From Candidatus Uhrbacteria bacterium (lineage in GTDB: Bacteria; Patescibacteriota; Patescibacteriia; JACQRZ01): a DNA stretch of 46,296 nt. A program made the position numbers and the translations under genes. Under the pieces are notes generated by a model that searched no databases, was not told the origin of the DNA, and saw only the letters and a list, made by a program, of their open reading frames with translations. The stretch lies in NCBI GenBank assembly GCA_016186045.1, contig JACPMJ010000011.1:1-46296 (forward strand), read 5' to 3'. This document shows, piece after piece, positions 5,170 through 37,393 of this stretch. Numbering within the stretch: the stretch's first letter is position 1; every line of letters begins with the position of its first letter.

Positions 5170-5172
5170 GCC

Positions 5173-6765
<1,593 letters not shown>

Positions 6766-8105: not shown

Positions 8106-8175
8106 ATAAAAAGCGCCTGATGTCAAACGGAAGTTAAAATGTCCTACTTTGCGGGATTTAAAAATGTCCTACTTG

Positions 8176-9513
8176 TTATGAATGAATAAGAATACGCTGC
8201 TTTATTTTATTGAAGTTTTTCCGTTCAATGTTCGCCCGTATTTGTAGTCGCCACGGATGGTTCCCCGTCGGTTTATGCGGTGTATGCACTACATCTTTGG
8301 CAAGTACCCATTGCACGTTTTTTGTTTTCTTCGGCCGTGCAGGTAGTGTTGTGTAGTTGAGCTCCTTGCCTCGTACACAGATATGGATCGTATTGTCAGT
8401 ATGCTCTTCAACCATAACAACGTCTTTCTTTCTCACCGCGACTCCTCGCGTCTCAACAATCTGGTACCATTGATTATTAAAGCTGAGCGTAAAGTCGTTT
8501 TGCACGGTGCGAGGAGTGTGGCGGGAAAAGATTGATGCGAGATTCTTTTTTTCCTCTGCCGTGAGCATGCAATGCAGATTTGCGTGTGAGACGGGTTGGA
8601 CGGAAAACTTGGCATTAAACTTTGGGAGGAATGTCTCTCGCAAGAATCTGTTTGCGTCATGAGCGGTGCGGATATTCGCAAGGCGAAGTTCTTTGATGAG
8701 CCGATCCTGAAAGGTGCGAAAGAGCCGCTCTATTCGTCCTTTCGCTTGAGGGCTGTTGGCAAAGATGGGCTGAATACTTACTTGATTGCAGGCGCGCTGG
8801 AACTGGGTTTTGACATCTGGGTTCTCACTCGCAATCTTGTGGTTTACCTTGTAGGTGCTGAATTTATCAAGGTAAATGGAGCGTGGCTTGCCGTAGGCGA
8901 GAATATACTCCCTCCAGAATCCCATGACAGGAAGAACACCCTCGTGTTTGGAAAACAGCGCGTGTACGACCGTTCCAGTGGCGTCATCAATGGTTGCGAG
9001 GAGACATTGCTCCGTTGTGCCATCCCGTCCCTCAAGCCAGTTTTCGTAGGAGCCGTCGAATTGGAGCATCTCGCCAAAACATTCTTTGCGGGCTCGCCAC
9101 TCGCGATACTCTCCGCGCTTTTTCCTCTTGCGAGGCGTCCAGAGGCCTTCGGCTATTTGGATGTCGCGAATGGTTTTTGGATCGCGAGTGATGCTGTGAT
9201 TCTCTGAAAGTTTCTCACCTGCGAAAGTGGGGCCGAAGTCAGGGTATTTTTTGTGAAGAAGAGCTATAATCTTTTTCTTCTCTTTCTCCGGAACGTGATT
9301 GTTGCTGGGCTTGCCACGGTTGCCATGGATGAGGCCTTTTACTCCTTCCTTTCGCACTGCACTCTTCAGGCGGCGAACGTGCCGAGTTGAGAGCGAGAGA
9401 AGTTTCGATGCCGTCGTGCCGTTTATCTCCTTTTTAAGGAGACGTGAAATGATGCCGTACCGGTCTATTTCTTTTCTAGACATAGTGAGGGTTTCCATAG
9501 GTGAAGCCATCAT
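8176..9513 (-). CDS. ISNCY-family transposase (DDE)
   Basis: A 445-residue DDE transposase. The N-terminal helix-turn-helix region (MSRKEIDRYGIISRLLKKEI; TRHVRRLKSAVRKEGVKGL) and FGPTFAGEKL segment are typical of ISNCY/ISDol1-like enzymes. Likely catalytic residues are D153 (QFDGSYENW), D216 (YLDKFSTYK) and E262 (KGRIERLF). The C-terminal part resembles the Mu-type extension of this family. Several in-frame ATGs exist near the start, and MSRKEID at 9483 is the alternative closest to family length. No frameshift or internal stop is seen, so the enzyme may be active. The family is recognised from memory of its sequence pattern, not from a search. Confidence 0.88.
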   Translation of the reverse strand: MMASPMETLTMSRKEIDRYGIISRLLKKEINGTTASKLLSLSTRHVRRLKSAVRKEGVKGLIHGNRGKPSNNHVPEKEKKKIIALLHKKYPDFGPTFAGEKLSENHSITRDPKTIRDIQIAEGLWTPRKRKKRGEYREWRARKECFGEMLQFDGSYENWLEGRDGTTEQCLLATIDDATGTVVHALFSKHEGVLPVMGFWREYILAYGKPRSIYLDKFSTYKVNHKIASENPDVKTQFQRACNQVSIQPIFANSPQAKGRIERLFRTFQDRLIKELRLANIRTAHDANRFLRETFLPKFNAKFSVQPVSHANLHCMLTAEEKKNLASIFSRHTPRTVQNDFTLSFNNQWYQIVETRGVAVRKKDVVMVEEHTDNTIHICVRGKELNYTTLPARPKKTKNVQWVLAKDVVHTPHKPTGNHPWRLQIRANIERKNFNKIKQRILIHS

Positions 9514-9539
9514 GAGTTATGGCATTCATCCTATCATGG

Positions 9540-9605
9540 TAGGACATTTTAACTTCCCTCAACTAGGACATTATCACTTCCCTCAACTAGGACATTATCA
9601 CTTCC
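9540..9605. repeat. Triple 24-bp direct repeat at the IS right end
   Basis: Three copies of TAGGACATTNTNACTTCC start at 9540, 9564 and 9588, linked by CTCAAC-like spacers and giving an exact 24-bp period. The left IS end carries the same motif in the opposite orientation. They are probable transposase-binding sites. Confidence 0.8.
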
Positions 9606-9617
9606 GTGAGACAAGGA

Positions 9618-13110: not shown

Positions 13111-16100
13111 ATGACATACGAAGAAAATCTCCTACATGATTTAAATGACGAGCAAAAGGCGGCGGTGACGTTTGGCGATGGGCCGTGCATGATAGTGGCC
13201 GGCGCGGGGACTGGTAAAACTACCGTGATTACCCGTCGTATCGCGTGGCTTATCCACAGCAAGAAGTGCAAGGCGGAGGAGCTTTTAGCTCTCACATTTA
13301 CGGAAAAGGCGGCCGCGGAGATGGAGGAGCGCGCCGACCGACTTTTGCCATACGGATATGTAAATCTCTGGATACTTACGTTTCACGCATTTTGTGAGCG
13401 TGTTTTACGCGTGCATGGACTGGATATCGGCCTGCCTACGGATTTTACGCTTCTGGATCAAACATCCGCGTGGCTTTTGGTGCGGAAAAATATCTCGCGA
13501 TTCAATCTGGACTATTACCGTCCCACGGGAAATCCTACAAAGTTCATTCATGCGCTATTGAAACATTTTTCTCGCGCGAAAGATGAGGAGATCAGTCCTG
13601 TGCAGTATGGGGAACACGCCGAAAAACTGAAGCTTCATACAGATACGGCAGGGGATACGGACAGCGCGCAGGGGTGCGAGGCACAGCGAATTGCGGAAGT
13701 TGCGGATGCGTATCATACCTATCAGCAGATACTTCTGGAAAATTCCGCGTTGGACTTTGGCGACCTCATCGTCTATACTCTAAAACTTTTCCGTGAGCGG
13801 CCGGTCATTTTAGAGAAATACCGGAAACAGTTTAAGTATATACTCGTAGACGAGTTTCAGGATACCAATTGGGCGCAGTATGAGCTGGTAAAACTTCTTG
13901 CCGCGCCGGTGAATAATCTTACGGTAGTGGGGGACGATGACCAATGTTTGCCCGCTAACTCTTCTATTTCGCTTCCAGATAATCATAAAAAAAATATCAA
14001 AGATATTCGTGCGGGAGATATAGTCTTGACAGCGGTAGGAAAGGGACATATCGGAGTTTCTCAAGTAAATAGGATATGGAAGCGAACGGCGCAACAGGAA
14101 ATGGTTACGATAAAAACGGAACACGGGGCGCATATCAGCGCGACCAGGAATCATAAGATGTTTTGTTATGTTCCCGCAAAATCTGATAAGAAGCATTTTT
14201 ATGTGTATCTCATGCATCGCAGAAATATGGGATGGCGGATAGGTACGACGAATGATCTCTCCGTTCGCTTACGCCTTGAACGTTCCGCGGATTATATCAT
14301 CGGAATAAAAGCATGCGTGAATGACGCGGAGGCAAGATATTATGAGACACTATGGTCTCTTTTTTATGGGATTCCTACCGCGTGTTTTAAGGAGAGAAAA
14401 AGAATCGTCATGAAAGGGGAGTATCTGCAAAAACTTTATCAAGAACTGGATGTTGATAAAAACGTGCACCGTTTGGCATGTGATCTTGGGATCGCACTTG
14501 ATGCGTATCACGCATGTTTGGATGCCGTGAATAGGGGATCGGGGCGTAGGATCAAAATACTCATTTCCATGTGCTATAGAAATTATCGAAGTAAGGAACA
14601 TGTAAGAAGGGGAAAGGCGATTCTTTACAAAGCACCGATTTCCCATATATTGAGTGTTGAAACATCTGATTCTTCCGTGATAAAAAAAATAGAAGATGCT
14701 GGATTTAACTGGAGAAAGGGAAAGGGAAACGGGAGGATACTTCGCATAACTTCATCGGATATGCGCGAAATTCAATTAAAAGCAGAAGAAATTAAAAAGA
14801 TAACTGGAGGCATCATTGAGTGTCGTTTTGCAGTTGGTCGCTTACAGTATCAACATTTGCCAGCTCGCATTATTCCTGCTGGAAATCTTTTGATAGGGCA
14901 TTATATCCCAGTTCGTAGAGGAGGTGAGATAGAATACGAGAAAATCGTTTCAATCAAAAAAAAGCAAAAGACACAAGAGGTATACGATCTTGAGATTGAT
15001 AGAACGCATAATTTTATTGCGAATTCCGTAGTGGTCCATAATTCTGTCTATAAATTTCGTGGCGCATCGCTTGCGAATATCTTGGAATTCAAAAAAGACT
15101 TTCCGCAGAGTAGGGAGGTATTCTTGGTAAAGAACTATAGGTCGGGGCAGAAGATATTGGATACGGCGTATGCGTTTATCCAAAAAAATAATCCAAATAG
15201 ACTGGAGTATCAGCTGGCGGAAGGGGATAACAGAGAAAATGGCGTGTCATCCCAGACTCGATCTGGGATCCAGTACCATGAATGCATGGATTCTCGGGTC
15301 AAGCCCGAGAATGACAGAAAGAAGTTTAGGGATGATAATGAGGCCGTTATTACCGCCTCAACACTTTCCAAGAAACTTGTATCGCAGACGCTTTCCCCCG
15401 GATCTGTCGTGCATATACATTGTGCGACGCATCAGGAAGAGGTGGAAAAGGTTTTGGAGAAAATATCAGAGCTCAAAGCGGAGAAGAGTGATCTTTTGTG
15501 GAGTGACTTTGCGATTCTTGTGCGCTCAAACAATCTTGCGAATCCATTTATTTCAATGTTTACCGAACATTCCATTCCGTACCAATTTTTTGGTTTGAAA
15601 GGTTTATACATGAAACAAGCTATTGTGGATGCATTAGCTTATTTTAAGGTAGTGGAAAACTTTCATGATGGCCCGGCGCTGTATCGCGTGCTTGCATTTC
15701 CATTTTTCAATATCCATACGGGAGCTCTAGTACAGCTTGGATATAACGCGCGAAAAAATGGACACTCGCTCTGGCAGGCGGCAAAAAAAATAGATGCCGA
15801 TTCAGAAGTTTTGGATGATGATAAGAAAAAGATTGAAAAAATCATTGCGGATATTGAGCGCCATGCGGATATGGCGCGGAGGCGGTCTCTCAGTGAGGTA
15901 TTTTTTTCATTTCTGAAAGACACCGGATATCTCATGGATGTAAGTAGTGCGGATACGGATTACAGGCGAGACGCGCTGAATTATCTGAATCAGCTTTTTC
16001 AAAAAGCAAAAGATTTTCAAAGTGAATATCCGTCTGCGCGGTTGCGAGATTTCATGGAATTGGTTGCTTTTGAGCAGGAGGCCGGTGACGCGGGCGCGCT

Positions 16101-17523
16101 TGCCGTGGATAGTGAGACGGGGCCGGACGCGGTGCGCATTATGACCGTCCATGGCGCGAAGGGATTGGAGTTTCGATATGTGTTTGTGGTGAATATGGTG
16201 GATAGAAAATTTCCAACCATTGAACGAGATGAGGAGATAGATATTCCCACCGCGCTCATAAAAGAACCACTGCAAGAGGGTGATGTACATCTTGAAGAGG
16301 AGCGACGGCTCTTTTATGTGGCTCTGACACGGGCGAAGGAGGGGGTATTCCTTACCTCTGCCGCTGATTATGGCGGCGCGCGAAAAAGAAAACTCTCGCA
16401 ATTTCTCAATGAGCTGGAGTTTACGCAGTGTCATTCCGAGCAGTCAGCATTATTGAGGCAAAGCAAAGCCTCATCGCGAAACCCTGTCCGATCCGGCTCC
16501 GCCGAAAACCCCGAGCGTATAATCGGAGAAAATATCGGGATATCCGGCAAAGCCGGATCAGGCTCTGCCTGGCTTCATAAATATTCCATTCAGAATGACA
16601 GAGACGATGCGTCGCACAATAGTATTGTCATTCCCGCGAAAGCGGGAATCCAGATAGACGGATGTACAGAAGATCATGGATTCCCAATCGAGTTGGGAAT
16701 GACATCAAAATCTTGGACCATCCCCTCTCATTTCAGCTTTACCCAGCTCGCCGCATTTCAAAAATGTCCATTGCAATATAAATTTTCATTTCTTTTGCAC
16801 GTTCCCGTTTTAGGCAAGTGGCAATTTAGTTTTGGAAAAAGTATTCACGCGACATTGGAAGAATTTTTTAACCGATTACTCAAAGAGAGAGATCCACAGC
16901 AGGACGCTCTTTCCCGCACATCAGAAACGCGGTATACTACAGATACGACATCTCTTCCCCCGTTTGAAGACCTCATTGAAATATATACTCGCCAGTGGAT
17001 TGACGAGTGGTATGGATCTCAAAAAGAAAAAGATGATCGTTTTTCCGAGGGCAAAGAAATGTTACGCAGAGTATATACAGAGCTTTCCGAAATGCCATTC
17101 CGTACGACGGACATTGAAAAAGATATCACTATTAAGATTGGTAGCTATCCAGAGTGCATTACTATCCGTGGACGCATTGATCGTATTGATACGTTCCAAG
17201 ATGGAACGGTAGAGATCATCGATTATAAAACTGGCGAGGCAAAGCAAGAAGAAAAACTCCGCGCAGAAGATAAGGAACAACTTATCATTTACCAAATCGC
17301 GTGCGAGGAGGTGCTGGGGAAAAAACCGGCGCGACTCACCTACTGGTATCTGAAAGACGGATCCAAGATTTCTTTTCTTGCGAGCCCAAAAGAAATACAG
17401 AAGTGGAAGGAAAAGATTTCCCAAACGGCGCAAAAGATTCGGTCGAGCGATTTTGCCGCAACACCCGGATTTCATTGCAGATTTTGCGACTATAGGGATA
17501 TTTGTGAATTTCGTCAGATGTAG
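13111..17523 (+). CDS. UvrD/PcrA-type helicase fused to a RecB-like nuclease, intein-containing
   Basis: A 1470-codon precursor. Superfamily 1 helicase motifs: P-loop GAGTGKT (31-37), TFT(E)KAA, Walker B DEFQD (247-251), motif III GDDDQ (274-278) interrupted by the intein, NYRS, TVHGAKGLEF and the VALTRAKEG motif VI. The C-terminal PD-(D/E)XK domain has IIDYKTG (D1371, K1373) and four cysteines (C1219, C1456, C1459, C1465) placed like the iron-sulfur cluster of AddB/Cas4-type nucleases. It should unwind and trim DNA during repair or recombination. Three short palindromic repeats are inserted in frame (about residues 712-736, 1106-1164 and 1172-1198), the latter two between helicase and nuclease. 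After splicing the protein would be 1104 residues. Confidence 0.93.
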   Translation: MTYEENLLHDLNDEQKAAVTFGDGPCMIVAGAGTGKTTVITRRIAWLIHSKKCKAEELLALTFTEKAAAEMEERADRLLPYGYVNLWILTFHAFCERVLRVHGLDIGLPTDFTLLDQTSAWLLVRKNISRFNLDYYRPTGNPTKFIHALLKHFSRAKDEEISPVQYGEHAEKLKLHTDTAGDTDSAQGCEAQRIAEVADAYHTYQQILLENSALDFGDLIVYTLKLFRERPVILEKYRKQFKYILVDEFQDTNWAQYELVKLLAAPVNNLTVVGDDDQCLPANSSISLPDNHKKNIKDIRAGDIVLTAVGKGHIGVSQVNRIWKRTAQQEMVTIKTEHGAHISATRNHKMFCYVPAKSDKKHFYVYLMHRRNMGWRIGTTNDLSVRLRLERSADYIIGIKACVNDAEARYYETLWSLFYGIPTACFKERKRIVMKGEYLQKLYQELDVDKNVHRLACDLGIALDAYHACLDAVNRGSGRRIKILISMCYRNYRSKEHVRRGKAILYKAPISHILSVETSDSSVIKKIEDAGFNWRKGKGNGRILRITSSDMREIQLKAEEIKKITGGIIECRFAVGRLQYQHLPARIIPAGNLLIGHYIPVRRGGEIEYEKIVSIKKKQKTQEVYDLEIDRTHNFIANSVVVHNSVYKFRGASLANILEFKKDFPQSREVFLVKNYRSGQKILDTAYAFIQKNNPNRLEYQLAEGDNRENGVSSQTRSGIQYHECMDSRVKPENDRKKFRDDNEAVITASTLSKKLVSQTLSPGSVVHIHCATHQEEVEKVLEKISELKAEKSDLLWSDFAILVRSNNLANPFISMFTEHSIPYQFFGLKGLYMKQAIVDALAYFKVVENFHDGPALYRVLAFPFFNIHTGALVQLGYNARKNGHSLWQAAKKIDADSEVLDDDKKKIEKIIADIERHADMARRRSLSEVFFSFLKDTGYLMDVSSADTDYRRDALNYLNQLFQKAKDFQSEYPSARLRDFMELVAFEQEAGDAGALAVDSETGPDAVRIMTVHGAKGLEFRYVFVVNMVDRKFPTIERDEEIDIPTALIKEPLQEGDVHLEEERRLFYVALTRAKEGVFLTSAADYGGARKRKLSQFLNELEFTQCHSEQSALLRQSKASSRNPVRSGSAENPERIIGENIGISGKAGSGSAWLHKYSIQNDRDDASHNSIVIPAKAGIQIDGCTEDHGFPIELGMTSKSWTIPSHFSFTQLAAFQKCPLQYKFSFLLHVPVLGKWQFSFGKSIHATLEEFFNRLLKERDPQQDALSRTSETRYTTDTTSLPPFEDLIEIYTRQWIDEWYGSQKEKDDRFSEGKEMLRRVYTELSEMPFRTTDIEKDITIKIGSYPECITIRGRIDRIDTFQDGTVEIIDYKTGEAKQEEKLRAEDKEQLIIYQIACEEVLGKKPARLTYWYLKDGSKISFLASPKEIQKWKEKISQTAQKIRSSDFAATPGFHCRFCDYRDICEFRQM
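13945..15042 (+). other. Intein with GIY-YIG-like endonuclease domain, within helicase motif III
   Basis: A 366-residue in-frame insertion between Q278 and S645 of GDDDQ|SVYKFRG. Splice signals are complete: Cys1 (CLPANSS), block B with TRNH, block F (VYDLEIDRTHNFIAN), and terminal His-Asn (VVVHN) followed by Ser. The middle (residues 363-450 of the precursor) reads YVYLMHRR...GWRIGTTNDLSVRL, matching the GIY-YIG nuclease pattern with W-R in place of the Tyr of YIG, and the Arg of the DLxxRL helix is present. A downstream region may bind DNA. Most intein homing nucleases are LAGLIDADG or HNH. Nuclease activity is inferred. Confidence 0.88.
15245..15316. repeat. Short palindromic repeat, copy 4, in frame in the helicase
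   Basis: A 72-bp element, TGTCAT to ATGACA, made of two hairpins (cccagactcgatctggga; tctcgggtcaagcccgaga). Its length is exactly 24 codons and it contains no stop in the helicase frame. Confidence 0.85.
16429..16600. repeat. Short palindromic repeat, long copy 5, in frame in the helicase
   Basis: A 172-bp element, TGTCAT to ATGACA, with internal hairpins (aggcaaagcaaagcct; tccggcaaagccgga). It encodes a Ser/Gly/Asn-rich stretch in the linker between helicase and nuclease domains without a stop. Confidence 0.8.
16626..16704. repeat. Short palindromic repeat, copy 6, in frame in the helicase
   Basis: A 79-bp element, TGTCAT to ATGACA, with hairpins tcccgcgaaagcggga and tcccaatcgagttggga. It follows copy 5 after 25 bp and also lies in the helicase-nuclease linker. 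It encodes VIPAKAGIQ, the peptide typical of such repeats when read in frame. Confidence 0.85.
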
Positions 17524-17525
17524 AA

Positions 17526-17680
17526 GGTGTGTTTTGAGTAAAGGCGCTTTCCGAGGGTATTTATTCGTCGGATCCTTCGGAACGCGACTGGCGTGAGACG
17601 GAGGAAATTTTCAGCAGAAAATTATCCGTATCCGACGAATAAGTACCTGAAGGTAAAAGCGGCATCACTCAAAACACATC
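17526..17680. repeat. Long imperfect palindrome between helicase and dciA-like gene
   Basis: Left arm 17526-17573 and right arm 17630-17680 are inverted copies (core TTATTCGTCGGAT, 13/13; outer GTGTTTTGAGT matches). The loop has a further hairpin (aattttcagcagaaaatt). It starts two bases after the helicase stop and ends eight bases before the next start, filling the gap. Confidence 0.85.
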
Positions 17681-22364: not shown

Positions 22365-22853
22365 ATGCAACAAAAAAAAGGTTTTACGCTTATTGAGCTC
22401 CTTATCGTCATAGCTATTATCGGTATTCTCTCAAGTATTGCCGTCGTTTCCGTGGGGAATGTCCGCCGGCTCGCGCGAGATTCCAAGCGTCTTGCCGATA
22501 TGCGCCAGCTTCAGACGGGGCTTGAGATGTATTTTAATGAAAATAATGCATACCCCTTGGGCAGCGCGATAGATACGGCAACTACATTGGGATCTGATGT
22601 AAATTATGTCGCGCTGTGCAATACAAACGCAGGATTCAGCACTATTGCCTTATGTGGAAATAATACCATGTATCTTGCAAAAGTGGCCGCAAATCCCGTT
22701 CCTGGCGGAGCAAATTATTCATATACGTCAGCAAATGGTGATTTGGGAAATGCTAATCGTCCGCGAACATTTACCGTCACGTTTAGTCTTGAAAGCGCAA
22801 TAGCAGGATATGCCGCAGGCGCGCATGAGTTGAGTCAGTTGGGAATGAGATAG
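22365..22853 (+). CDS. Type IV pilin (paralogue)
   Basis: A 162-residue prepilin with leader MQQKKG, F-TLIEL cleavage and methylation site, hydrophobic helix to about residue 29, and the same LARDSKRLADMRQLQTGLEMY helix as the neighbouring pilin. The globular part is more divergent. It is 26 bases downstream of the preceding pilin and ends the pilin cluster before a terminator at 22898. Which of the two pilins is the major subunit cannot be told from sequence. Confidence 0.92.
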   Translation: MQQKKGFTLIELLIVIAIIGILSSIAVVSVGNVRRLARDSKRLADMRQLQTGLEMYFNENNAYPLGSAIDTATTLGSDVNYVALCNTNAGFSTIALCGNNTMYLAKVAANPVPGGANYSYTSANGDLGNANRPRTFTVTFSLESAIAGYAAGAHELSQLGMR

Positions 22854-22862
22854 TTTTCCCTG

Positions 22863-22893
22863 TGTCATTCTCGGACTTGATCCGAGAATCCAT
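22863..22893. repeat. Short palindromic repeat, half copy 7
   Basis: TGTCATTCTCGGACTTGATC and the following CGAGAATCCAT form one half (one hairpin) of the dispersed family. It lies between the last pilin stop and the terminator. Confidence 0.7.
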
Positions 22894-23877: not shown

Positions 23878-24441
23878 AGAGGCATCACCATTGTCGAGCT
23901 CATTTTATCCATTTCCATTATTGGCATGTTCTCCACGTTGGCAGTTATCAGTTTTAGGTCGAGTAAACAGGATGATCTTTTGCGTATTGCCGGCTTTCGT
24001 GCAACAGACGCGATTCGCGCGGCGCAAAGCTACGCACTTGCCGGGATAGCACAGAACGCCAGCCAAGATGTGAGAACAGCTCAATTTTTTGGCGTCTCTG
24101 TCCAAAAGGATTCAGATAATGTTGGGAAGATAGTGATATTTGCCGATACAAACACAGTGAGCGGGACCGGAATATATGACGATGGAAAAGATGTGAAAAT
24201 ACAGGAGTTGTCGCTTGATCCTGACGGACGGAAAACAGTGGTATTGGATGGCATAACGTTAGACAGGACAGCACACAGTGCGCCAGTGGATATTGCGTTC
24301 AAAAAGCCGGACGCTGCAGGCGTTGTCAATGGAGGTGTTGATGCACAAGAGGCGGTGCTTACGTTTAAGCATATGCAGTCGGGACATACGCGGACTGTCA
24401 CGGTGAACCGTGTCACTGGCAGGGTTGACGCACAGTTTTAA
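23872..24441 (+). CDS. Type IV pseudopilin (GspH/FimT-like)
   Basis: A 189-residue minor pilin candidate. The leader MTRG is followed by ITIVEL with the conserved Glu, and a hydrophobic helix to about residue 27. The globular part (RAAQSYALAG, a Glu/Asp-rich middle and a beta-rich end closing in TVTVNRVTGRV) resembles GspH/FimT pseudopilins. The ATG at 23872 lies in a palindromic repeat. An upstream in-frame ATG at 23806 would give a 26-residue leader with repeat-encoded residues and starts two bases after the pilD stop. Either could be used; the prepilin peptidase would cleave both at the same Gly. Confidence 0.85.
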   Translation: MTRGITIVELILSISIIGMFSTLAVISFRSSKQDDLLRIAGFRATDAIRAAQSYALAGIAQNASQDVRTAQFFGVSVQKDSDNVGKIVIFADTNTVSGTGIYDDGKDVKIQELSLDPDGRKTVVLDGITLDRTAHSAPVDIAFKKPDAAGVVNGGVDAQEAVLTFKHMQSGHTRTVTVNRVTGRVDAQF

Positions 24442-24455
24442 ACGGTTATATTGAT

Positions 24456-24614
24456 GAGTGAGCAAGGCGGGCTGTCTAAAAACTCACTTCTGTCATCCTG
24501 AATGAAGTGAAGGATCCCGCAGTTGTAATGTTTTTAACGTCGGGATTCCTCGTTTCACTCGGAATGACAAATCAAGTGTTTTGACAGTTTTTAGACAGCC
24601 CGCCTTGTTTACTC
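24456..24614. repeat. Long palindrome enclosing a short palindromic repeat (copy 9)
   Basis: Outer arms of about 29 nt (gag-t-aagGCGGGCTGTCTAAAAACT type, 24456-24484 and 24586-24614) match with few differences. Inside is a 79-bp family repeat, TGTCAT 24491 to ATGACA 24569. The outer arms contain a strong GC stem and may terminate transcription between the pilus and glycosyltransferase blocks. Confidence 0.85.
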
Positions 24615-24629
24615 AAAGATATAGAAAAA

Positions 24630-35087: not shown

Positions 35088-36470
35088 ATGCCAGACATTT
35101 CACAAAAAGAAACAGAGCAGTATCCACTCGTAGTACTTGTTGGGCGCGTGAATGTGGGGAAATCCACGCTTTTTAATCTATTCACCGAAAAAAAGAAAGC
35201 AGTCACTGCGCCAGTGCCGGGAACGACGCGAGATATCAATTACGGGTTTTGCCGATGGCGAGATCAAGAGTTTTTTAGCGTAGATACCGGCGGATATATT
35301 CCCAAGCCAAAAACAGACATTGAAAAAAGGGTTGCGGCACAGGCAGAAAACATGCTCACACGGGCGACAGTTATTCTTTTTATGGTCGATACGCGTGAGG
35401 GCTTGCACACGGATGATAAGGCATATATCAAAGTCATACGAAAGCGTACGAAAGCGCCGGTGATTTTGGTGGGGAATAAGGCGGACTCTCGCAAGGCGCG
35501 CGGCGCAGAATATGACCGCGCATGGCTCACGCTCGGTCTTGGCGAGCCGCGTTTTATTTCCGCAATCAGCGGGTCTGGTACCGGAGACATATTGGATGAG
35601 GTGATCACGTATTTTCCTCAGAAAAAAATATCAGAAAAAAGTTTTAGCGAACCAATTAAAATCGCTATCATCGGCAGGACAAACGTGGGGAAATCATCCC
35701 TGCTGAACGGCATCCTCGGCGAGGAGCGCGTGATCGTGAGCGCTATTCCGCACACCACCCGCGAACCGCAGGATACGCCCATAGAATATCAGGGAGTGCC
35801 GCTTCTGTTGATTGATACTGTCGGCATCAGGAAAAAATCAAGGGTCAAACGCGGCATTGAGCGGGAGGGAGTGGGGCGGAGCATACGGAATATTGAAAAG
35901 GCTGATATCTGTATTTTGATATTAGACAGTACCGTAACACCGTCAAAACAGGAAAAGCGTCTTGCGGAAATTGCCGTCCAGTCCGGAGCCGGCATCATCC
36001 TTGCGGTGAACAAGTGGGATCTCATAGAAGGAAAACAGACAAAGACGCCGTCTGCGTTTGAACAGCAATTCCGTGAATATTTTTCTTTCATTTCATGGGC
36101 GCCAATCGTATTTGTGTCTGCGCTTACCGGCAAACGCGTACAAAAAATTCTTCCACTCGCGCTGTCCGTTGAAGAGGAGCGAAAAAAAATTATCTCTCCA
36201 GAGGAGTGTGGCGTGTTTATTAAGCGGGCTATTGCGCGGCAAAAGCCGCAGTGGATTATGGGATATAAAAAGCCGGTTATCTATGGCTTTGGACAGCGAA
36301 GCAGTCGTCCGCCAACATTTGCGCTTTTTGTGCAGGAAGCAAAAGCAATCAGCTATGCGTATTTGCGCTATATTGAGAACCGTCTTCGCGAACAGTATGG
36401 GTTTCTCGGAACGCCGGTGCGCGTATGCACGGAACAACGCTTAAAAAAAGACAGAGTTGATCAATATTGA
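35088..36470 (+). CDS. der: Ribosome-assembly GTPase Der (EngA)
   Basis: A 460-residue protein with two tandem GTPase domains, unique to Der: GRVNVGKS (19-26) with DTGGYIP and NKAD, and GRTNVGKS (196-203) with DTVGIRKKSR and NKWD. A C-terminal KH-like domain follows (IMGYKKPVIYGFGQRSSRPP). It acts in 50S subunit maturation. The start at ATG 35088 gives the family N-terminus. The left arm of a long palindrome begins within its last codons (36459). Confidence 0.96.
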   Translation: MPDISQKETEQYPLVVLVGRVNVGKSTLFNLFTEKKKAVTAPVPGTTRDINYGFCRWRDQEFFSVDTGGYIPKPKTDIEKRVAAQAENMLTRATVILFMVDTREGLHTDDKAYIKVIRKRTKAPVILVGNKADSRKARGAEYDRAWLTLGLGEPRFISAISGSGTGDILDEVITYFPQKKISEKSFSEPIKIAIIGRTNVGKSSLLNGILGEERVIVSAIPHTTREPQDTPIEYQGVPLLLIDTVGIRKKSRVKRGIEREGVGRSIRNIEKADICILILDSTVTPSKQEKRLAEIAVQSGAGIILAVNKWDLIEGKQTKTPSAFEQQFREYFSFISWAPIVFVSALTGKRVQKILPLALSVEEERKKIISPEECGVFIKRAIARQKPQWIMGYKKPVIYGFGQRSSRPPTFALFVQEAKAISYAYLRYIENRLREQYGFLGTPVRVCTEQRLKKDRVDQY

Positions 36471-36650
36471 CCTTTCATAGTTACCTTGTCAAAGAACATA
36501 TTATGATTTTGAGACAGATTCGACGCCGTGGAGACGAAAAAAACCGCAGACGTATGACGCATACGATGAGGATTTTTTTCGTTGAACGGCAAGAAGCTGG
36601 CCAAAGGCATAATATGTTATGATAAGGTAACTATGAAAGATCAATAATAT
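36459..36650. repeat. Long imperfect palindrome between der and pth
   Basis: Arms 36459-36505 and 36608-36648 match in inverted orientation with a perfect 16-bp core (CTTTCATAGTTACCTT / AAGGTAACTATGAAAG). A nested inverted pair lies inside (GCCGT..ACGAAAAAAA / TTTTTTTCGT..ACGGC), so nearly the full 190 bp can pair. It includes the der stop codon and ends at the pth ATG. No gene is seen in the gap. Confidence 0.88.
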
Positions 36651-37262
36651 ATGAAACTTTTTGTCGGACTGGGAAACCCCGGAAAAACATATGAAAAAAC
36701 CCGTCATAACGCCGGATGTATGGCATTGGAAACGTTTGTGTATGCCGCTGAAGGGCACAGCGATTTTTTTCTTATTTCGCGAGAGAAGCATATGGCATAT
36801 GAAGCAGTAGAATATGAGTGGAGGCGGGGAAACGCTCATGATGCGGTTCTGTGCGTCTGGCCGCACCTTTTTATGAACAGATCGGGAGAGGTCATGCGTC
36901 AGATAGTGTGTTCGCATAAAAAAATGGCAGTATCCGCAGACCTTGTCGTGCTCCATGATGATATTGATATCCCGATCGGCATGTTCAAAGTGGATAAAAA
37001 CAGTTCATCAGGCGGGCATAAAGGCGTGCAAAATATCATTGATCAACTTGGGACAAAAGACTTCATCAGATTTCGCATCGGCATTAAACCGATTCATGCT
37101 TCGCGGCTTGCAACTGAGGATTTTGTGCTAAAAAAATTTTCAAAAGAGGAAGAACAGGCGCTTAAAAAAGTATATCAGACTGTTTGCGGCGCGCTTATGG
37201 TTTTTTTAGAGCAGGGGCTCTCAGGAACGCAGAATATCTATAATAAAAAAATGATTTCCTAA
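36651..37262 (+). CDS. pth: Peptidyl-tRNA hydrolase
   Basis: A 203-residue enzyme that frees tRNA from stalled peptidyl-tRNA. Active-site residues are present: N9 (GLGNPG), H19 (TRHNAG), the substrate-binding MNRSG segment, the catalytic-helper Asp in LHDDIDIPIG, and GGHKGVQNI with its Asn. The length is slightly above the norm. The gene is bracketed by two long palindromes (36459-36650 and 37243-37393), the second of which begins inside its last codons. Confidence 0.95.
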   Translation: MKLFVGLGNPGKTYEKTRHNAGCMALETFVYAAEGHSDFFLISREKHMAYEAVEYEWRRGNAHDAVLCVWPHLFMNRSGEVMRQIVCSHKKMAVSADLVVLHDDIDIPIGMFKVDKNSSSGGHKGVQNIIDQLGTKDFIRFRIGIKPIHASRLATEDFVLKKFSKEEEQALKKVYQTVCGALMVFLEQGLSGTQNIYNKKMIS

Positions 37263-37393
37263 ACACCGTTTGCCAGTGAAAGAGCTCATCCGAGTCCGGA
37301 TATGCCCTCTGCTTATGGCGATACGCAAGAATAAGGAGGAGTGTCTCGCGCGAGCCACTGGCAAACAGTGCTCAAAAAATCATTTTTTTTAGC
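37243..37393. repeat. Long imperfect palindrome after pth
   Basis: Left arm 37243-37278 and right arm 37356-37393 are inverted copies (perfect GTTTGCCAGTG / CACTGGCAAAC, then AAAAAAATGATTT / AAATCATTTTTTT). It contains the last pth codons and stop. The T-rich right side (37384-37390) could also terminate transcription. The loop holds a small hairpin and no gene. Confidence 0.85.

Follow-up and report, generated by a model that had tools for sequence, protein, structure and literature searches.

Among the described systems of dispersed hairpin repeats, the CGTC-tagged repetitive extragenic palindromes (REPs) defined by Di Nocera, De Gregorio and Rocco in 2013 (PMC3733652) are the closest to the elements treated here. 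A unit carries the tag CGTC, often TGTC, an 8-9-bp stem starting with AT, a loop of 4-5 nt and a 3-nt unpaired tail, mostly CCA, and dimers are mostly head-to-head (PMC3733652). RPE-4 and RPE-6 of Rickettsia conorii (RPE, Rickettsia palindromic element) and dRS3 of Neisseria were assigned to the same superfamily, for which no dedicated transposase is known, and the genes tagged in other phyla encode UvrD/Rep helicases, RecBCD, PolA, TruB and tRNA synthetases (PMC3733652). We analysed a 46,296-nucleotide contig of a Candidatus Uhrbacteria bacterium (JACPMJ010000011.1, assembly GCA_016186045.1; hereafter the window), in which three palindromic elements lie inside a single helicase gene. In our best reading this is a known kind of repeat in a new host lineage; no earlier description of REPs in the candidate phyla radiation (CPR), Patescibacteria or Parcubacteria was found in a search of one open-access library.

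Three elements within the reading frame of one helicase gene

The gene at 13111-17523 (plus strand) encodes a UvrD/PcrA-type superfamily 1 helicase fused to a PDDEXK_1 (RecB/Cas4-like) nuclease, 1470 amino acids including an intein, and its open reading frame (ORF) of 1470 codons is free of stops throughout. The product matches the Pfam profiles UvrD-helicase (E 2.9e-72), UvrD_C (E 1e-47) and PDDEXK_1 (E 1.4e-39), and of 57 genomes searched, its own included, 55 have a match to the helicase. As read from the translation, the helicase motifs GAGTGKT, DEFQD, NYRS, VHGAKGLEF and VALTRA are all intact, as are the nuclease motifs DRID...EIIDYKTG and the C-terminal CRFCDYRDIC, which suggests that the enzyme has remained active.

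A first-pass annotation made from the sequence alone had located three copies of a repeat inside this stop-free frame, and its coordinates were confirmed: all three elements are bounded by TGTCATYC...GRATGACA. Insert 1 (15245-15316, plus strand) is 72 nt long, exactly the 24 codons first noted, and is read as (V)SSQTRSGIQYHECMDSRVKPENDR. It is a head-to-head dimer of one unit on the plus strand at 15245-15272 (TGTC-ATCCCAGA-CTCGA-TCTGGGAT-CCA; stem 8, loop 5) and one on the minus strand at 15287-15316 (TGTC-ATTCTCGGG-CTTGA-CCCGAGAAT-CCA; stem 9, loop 5). Insert 3 (16626-16704, plus strand, 79 nt), read as VIPAKAGIQ...GFPIELGMT, has the same arrangement, with units at 16626-16652 on the plus strand (TGTC-ATTCCCGC-GAAA-GCGGGAAT-CCA; stem 8, loop 4) and at 16677-16704 on the minus strand (TGTC-ATTCCCAA-CTCGA-TTGGGAAT-CCA; stem 8, loop 5). 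Insert 2 (16429-16600, plus strand), a mosaic-like element of 172 nt, has small internal palindromes between its ends TGTCATTC...GAATGACA. Inserts 2 and 3 together with a 25-nt spacer occupy 276 nt (16429-16704, plus strand), that is 92 codons, in the linker between helicase and nuclease.

Only insert 1 is a multiple of a codon, as 172 and 79 nt are not divisible by 3; the initial description of repeats inserted in frame therefore stands for the stop-free frame but not for the lengths of copies 2 and 3. The first bases of inserts 1, 2 and 3 fall on codon positions 2, 1 and 3, respectively, and all three avoid the phase in which the terminal GRATGACA would give the stop GRA-TGA. The conserved encoded peptide that marks RPEs was not found, the helicase alone using all three phases, and the idea that the repeats add one particular peptide in the manner of RPEs had to be given up. 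The window has 16 occurrences of the octamer TGTCATYC where 3.4 would be expected, and none of 100 shuffles reached 16. Compared with shuffled sequence, folding is pronounced for insert 1 (z -5.5) and insert 3 (z -4.9) and weaker for insert 2 (z -2.9).

Assignment to the CGTC-tagged REPs

In total 64 tagged hairpin units were found by scanning 396 kb of the source genome (G000), in stretches around the copies, and none in shuffled sequence. Most fall into three classes, namely stem 8 with loop 5 (n=21), stem 8 with loop 4 (n=21) and stem 9 with loop 5 (n=20); the stem is 8 or 9 in 63 of the 64 units, the loop 4 or 5 likewise in 63, and the CCA tail is present in 61. The tag, which is TGTC and in one unit CGTC, and the following AT were fixed in the search pattern, while the remainder of the hairpin was free. 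Thirteen head-to-head dimers have their tags outside, and no close tag-inside pair was seen among the listed units.

Inserts 1 and 3 agree with the published definition in tag, stem, loop, tail and dimer orientation, and judged by these features they are head-to-head dimers of CGTC/TGTC-tagged REPs. Insert 2 does not belong to this class: the tagged-hairpin scan found no canonical TGTC unit of tag, stem, loop and CCA inside it, only its 8-nt ends (TGTCATTC and GAATGACA) are in common with the canonical repeats, and just fragments of it recur elsewhere in the genome. It looks like a mosaic relative built of smaller palindromes, so that of the three palindromic repeats originally proposed, copies 1 and 3 are canonical and copy 2 shares merely the ends. 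Exact copies of the right half of insert 1 are found at several other genomic sites, which implies a fairly recent spread.

Comparison with orthologues and predicted structure

None of the aligned helicase orthologues contains the insert segments, which is the outcome that the first-pass annotation had anticipated for such an alignment. Insert 1 lies in a helicase loop of varying length among orthologues, which measures 54 amino acids here and 6-23 in the aligned proteins, and its site falls between the aligned segments of solved UvrD/PcrA helicases. The linker with inserts 2 and 3, where two of the copies had indeed been placed, comprises 108 amino acids here and 24-49 in the aligned orthologues.

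An AlphaFold2 model of the post-intein part of the helicase, built from 40 sequences, reached a mean pLDDT (predicted local distance difference test) of 72.7 and a pTM (predicted template modelling score) of 0.50. The pLDDT is below 50 at modelled residues 62-108 and 476-558, which span insert 1 together with the greater part of inserts 2 and 3, and above 90 in the adjoining helicase segments. The inserts are thus predicted to be located in disordered loops and in a disordered linker. The structure prediction proposed at the outset thereby returned disorder for these segments, but since the overall model is just moderate, no structure is established.

The intein (13945-15042, plus strand, 366 amino acids), which the first-pass finding had left unmentioned, matches Intein_splicing (E 2.6e-19) as well as TIGR01445 and TIGR01443 above cut-off. 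It was placed between VVGDDDQ and SVYKFRG, with boundaries taken from the orthologue alignment, and the aligned orthologues are without it. By eye, the middle of the intein (YVYLMHRRNMGWRIGTTNDLSVRLRLE...) is similar to a GIY-YIG nuclease, but no such domain was found with Pfam at E<=10.

Copies in the source genome and among relatives

The source genome comprises 927,653 bases on 32 contigs and is 91.6% complete. The pattern TGTCATYCN{6,30}GRATCCA matches 62 times in it and not at all in the control. Across 57 genomes of the class its distribution is patchy: besides the 62 matches in G000 there are 76 in G008, 77 in G049 and 39 in G044, and zero in many others. In G049 there are variants with long loops (40-45 nt, e.g. 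TGTCATCCCGGAAGGCCGAGCGGAGCGAGGTCTATCCGGGATCCA), many of them in same-orientation runs, and this arrangement differs from that in G000.

REP units are mostly intergenic in the source genome. Only 8 of 51 lie in supported genes as compared to a coding fraction of 86% (p ~2e-29), which indicates strong purging; the coding fraction was taken from the window and the choice of ORFs was our own. Further copies of the family of inserts 1 and 3 in the window are a head-to-head dimer at the contig end (14-95, plus strand) and a single unit at 22863-22892 (plus strand), just past an ORF ending at 22853. The ends of a REP-like dimer lie inside a 38-nt inverted repeat at 24491-24569 (plus strand), just past an ORF ending at 24441.

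The loss of ribosomal protein L30 is a mark of the CPR. The protein is missing from the source genome and 37 relatives and present in 13 of 14 control genomes; this is consistent with the CPR, to which the host probably belongs, and fits the first impression of a CPR-like genome.

REPs in other genes

Other in-frame REPs of the source genome were found at two places in KsgA, as a degenerate copy in RsmE, in TruB, in glucose-6-phosphate isomerase (GPI) and in two envelope genes, one of them O-antigen-ligase-like and the other for a glycosyltransferase. Solved-structure homologues of TruB, KsgA, GPI and RsmE align to both flanks of most of these stretches but not across the stretches themselves; in KsgA the alignment with a solved homologue runs across the single unit, and insertion there is less certain. 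The relative G008, of the same family and another genus, carries single or paired REPs in TruB, PolA, a MutY-like glycosylase, Lgt, MnmA and MetRS. In TruB the REPs occupy a common loop in the two genera, with a dimer in G000 (gene at L087, 3664-4449, minus strand) and a single unit in G008 (gene at L128, 2165-2893, plus strand), and seven other family members have only a minimal loop at this place. The TruB of G010 has an unrelated-looking extension at the same position.

The 16 intragenic cases in the two genomes use several codon phases and both orientations. Four of the six confident intragenic REPs of G008 (in L120, L124, L128 and L147) are 27 nt (9 codons) long and read in one frame as LDP-[GA]-LRRDD-[KN]; this number is too small for a frame preference to be deduced. 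The assumption that the repeats are specially stop-free was rejected, single units being open in about 0.72 of frames and random genomic stretches in 0.74, and dimers are open in about 0.28. In annotation, strings such as VIPAKAGIQ, CHSRENGNP or LDPGLRRDDK within proteins should be taken as decorations and not as conserved domains. In-frame REPs just upstream of UvrB (L089, 3945-6089, plus strand, G000) and of a DnaG-like frame (L122, 961-2865, minus strand, G008) could be part of either a 5' leader or an N-terminal extension.

Mobility

The near-identical dispersed copies suggest that the REPs were mobile in the past. A transposase of the Y1_Tnp type, as encoded by REP-associated tyrosine transposase (RAYT) genes, was not found at E<=0.01 in the 91.6% complete genome, and across the 57 genomes copy number does not correlate with Y1 genes (Spearman 0.17, p 0.21). 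A resident RAYT as the mover thus found no support. Duplications of 2-4 nt at the ends of 57 units of the source genome, as left by classical miniature inverted-repeat transposable elements (MITEs), are at chance level, and for this reason a 2-bp duplication restoring the frame of the 79-, 82-, 106- and 172-nt copies was also discarded.

Other mobile-element-like sequences were observed in the window. MITE-like intergenic inverted repeats with arms of 23-38 nt and total lengths of 145-193 nt are found at 24447-24623, 5170-5362, 36465-36646, 37245-37389 and 17528-17678, the first of which encloses the REP-like dimer mentioned above. An insertion sequence at 8149-9611 has a 445-amino-acid transposase-like gene on the minus strand and 24-nt ends, one of them tandemly repeated three times (9540-9611).

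Origin of the insertions

We consider it very probable that the elements represent a selfish hairpin repeat whose harmless insertions survive at tolerant loops and linkers, inserts 1 and 3 being REP dimers and insert 2 a mosaic relative. Non-autonomous REPs would have spread through the genome, transposed by an enzyme that was provided in trans or has been lost in the meantime, and would persist mostly between genes. A minority would land in genes, at loops or linkers tolerant of length and in an open phase, and such insertions would survive, adding merely disordered peptide, with harmful ones being lost. In the helicase the variable loop and the helicase-nuclease linker would have been hit, and the inserts would be neutral.

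Several findings speak against this explanation. The loop minus insert 1 still has 30 amino acids and exceeds that of the orthologues, the comparison of empty sites is limited to genomes of other genera, and the lengths of 172 and 79 nt require either small base gains and losses, which have to be assumed, or a joint arrival. In addition, three elements in one gene are unlikely under uniform landing, with a chance of 0.0005-0.001, but no longer so if inserts 2 and 3 represent one event (0.06-0.09), both calculated with modelled gene lengths. KsgA, too, holds two elements. The low chance of three elements per gene points to unevenness of tolerance or targeting. It is rather unlikely that CGTC REPs are moved in the CPR by a non-RAYT machinery and that their recurrence in shared loops of particular genes in different phyla (TruB, UvrD/RecB-type helicases, PolA) reflects target preference or selection instead of mere tolerance. 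The TruB loop hit in two genera, together with TruB as a target in Proteobacteria, offers a simple comparative test of tolerance against targeting.

Insertions in repair and RNA-modification genes could also have been favoured because the peptides alter activity, for example by raising mutability, as was speculated before about repair genes that carry REPs in other phyla. The known targets UvrD/Rep helicases, PolA and TruB (PMC3733652) do recur, with the helicase and TruB in G000 and TruB, PolA and the MutY-like gene in G008. However, neither peptide nor phase is conserved, the inserts sit in disordered loops of variable length, REP copies are depleted from genes overall, and GPI, Lgt, MetRS and envelope genes are among the targets, so that we regard such an adaptive role as very unlikely. 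Equally unlikely in our view is a decaying helicase that is no longer needed and accumulates insertions and an intein. The load of three elements plus an intein is unusual for one gene, but the 4.4-kb frame is open despite inserts that are not codon multiples, the helicase and nuclease motifs are intact and orthologues are retained in nearly all relatives. An assembly or binning artefact, in which repeat reads from elsewhere were misjoined into the gene, might be suspected in a draft of 32 contigs with near-identical repeats and a REP dimer within 13 nt of the window start, but is extremely improbable given that the elements are short (72-172 nt), that each insert has the same gene on either side, in orthologue order and with the frame resuming each time, and that a like pattern exists in the independent genome G008.

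Comparison with known systems

The present case extends protein-coding REPs to a lineage whose genomes are tiny and streamlined, which counts against coding palindromes being a peculiarity of Rickettsia. The Rickettsia elements, first named as the parallel, are also not the sole precedent, as REPs within repair genes and UvrD/Rep helicase genes had been reported earlier from other phyla (PMC3733652). The parallel itself holds in part: the CGTC REP superfamily is shared with RPE-4 and RPE-6 by structure, but there is no fixed coded peptide.

The REPINs of the REP-RAYT system are similar in being dispersed, non-autonomous, paired inverted hairpins, but they consist of GTAG-tagged REPs served by Y1 transposases, while the tag is TGTC here and no Y1_Tnp gene was detected in the genome. 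Neisseria dRS3 (CGTC-1) has TGTC-type hairpin units with stem 8 and loop 4 as found here, but in Neisseria these lie mostly in large clusters (PMC3733652), whereas dimers and singles prevail in the source genome. RPE-4 (CGTC-4) and RPE-6 (CGTC-1) fall into the common superfamily by its structural definition, the level at which they were compared here, and Rickettsia RPEs resemble our elements by in-frame insertion into unrelated housekeeping genes; unlike in Rickettsia, our elements differ in phase and peptide and on the whole avoid genes. The CGTC-tagged REPs (Di Nocera, De Gregorio and Rocco 2013, PMC3733652) differ in their hosts, which belong to five phyla and mainly to the alpha-Proteobacteria instead of CPR-like genomes, and insert 2 is non-canonical by their definition, but they agree in the TGTC tag, stem, loop, CCA tail and head-to-head dimers, and further in heterodimers, the lack of an associated transposase and copies read in frame within TruB and repair genes.
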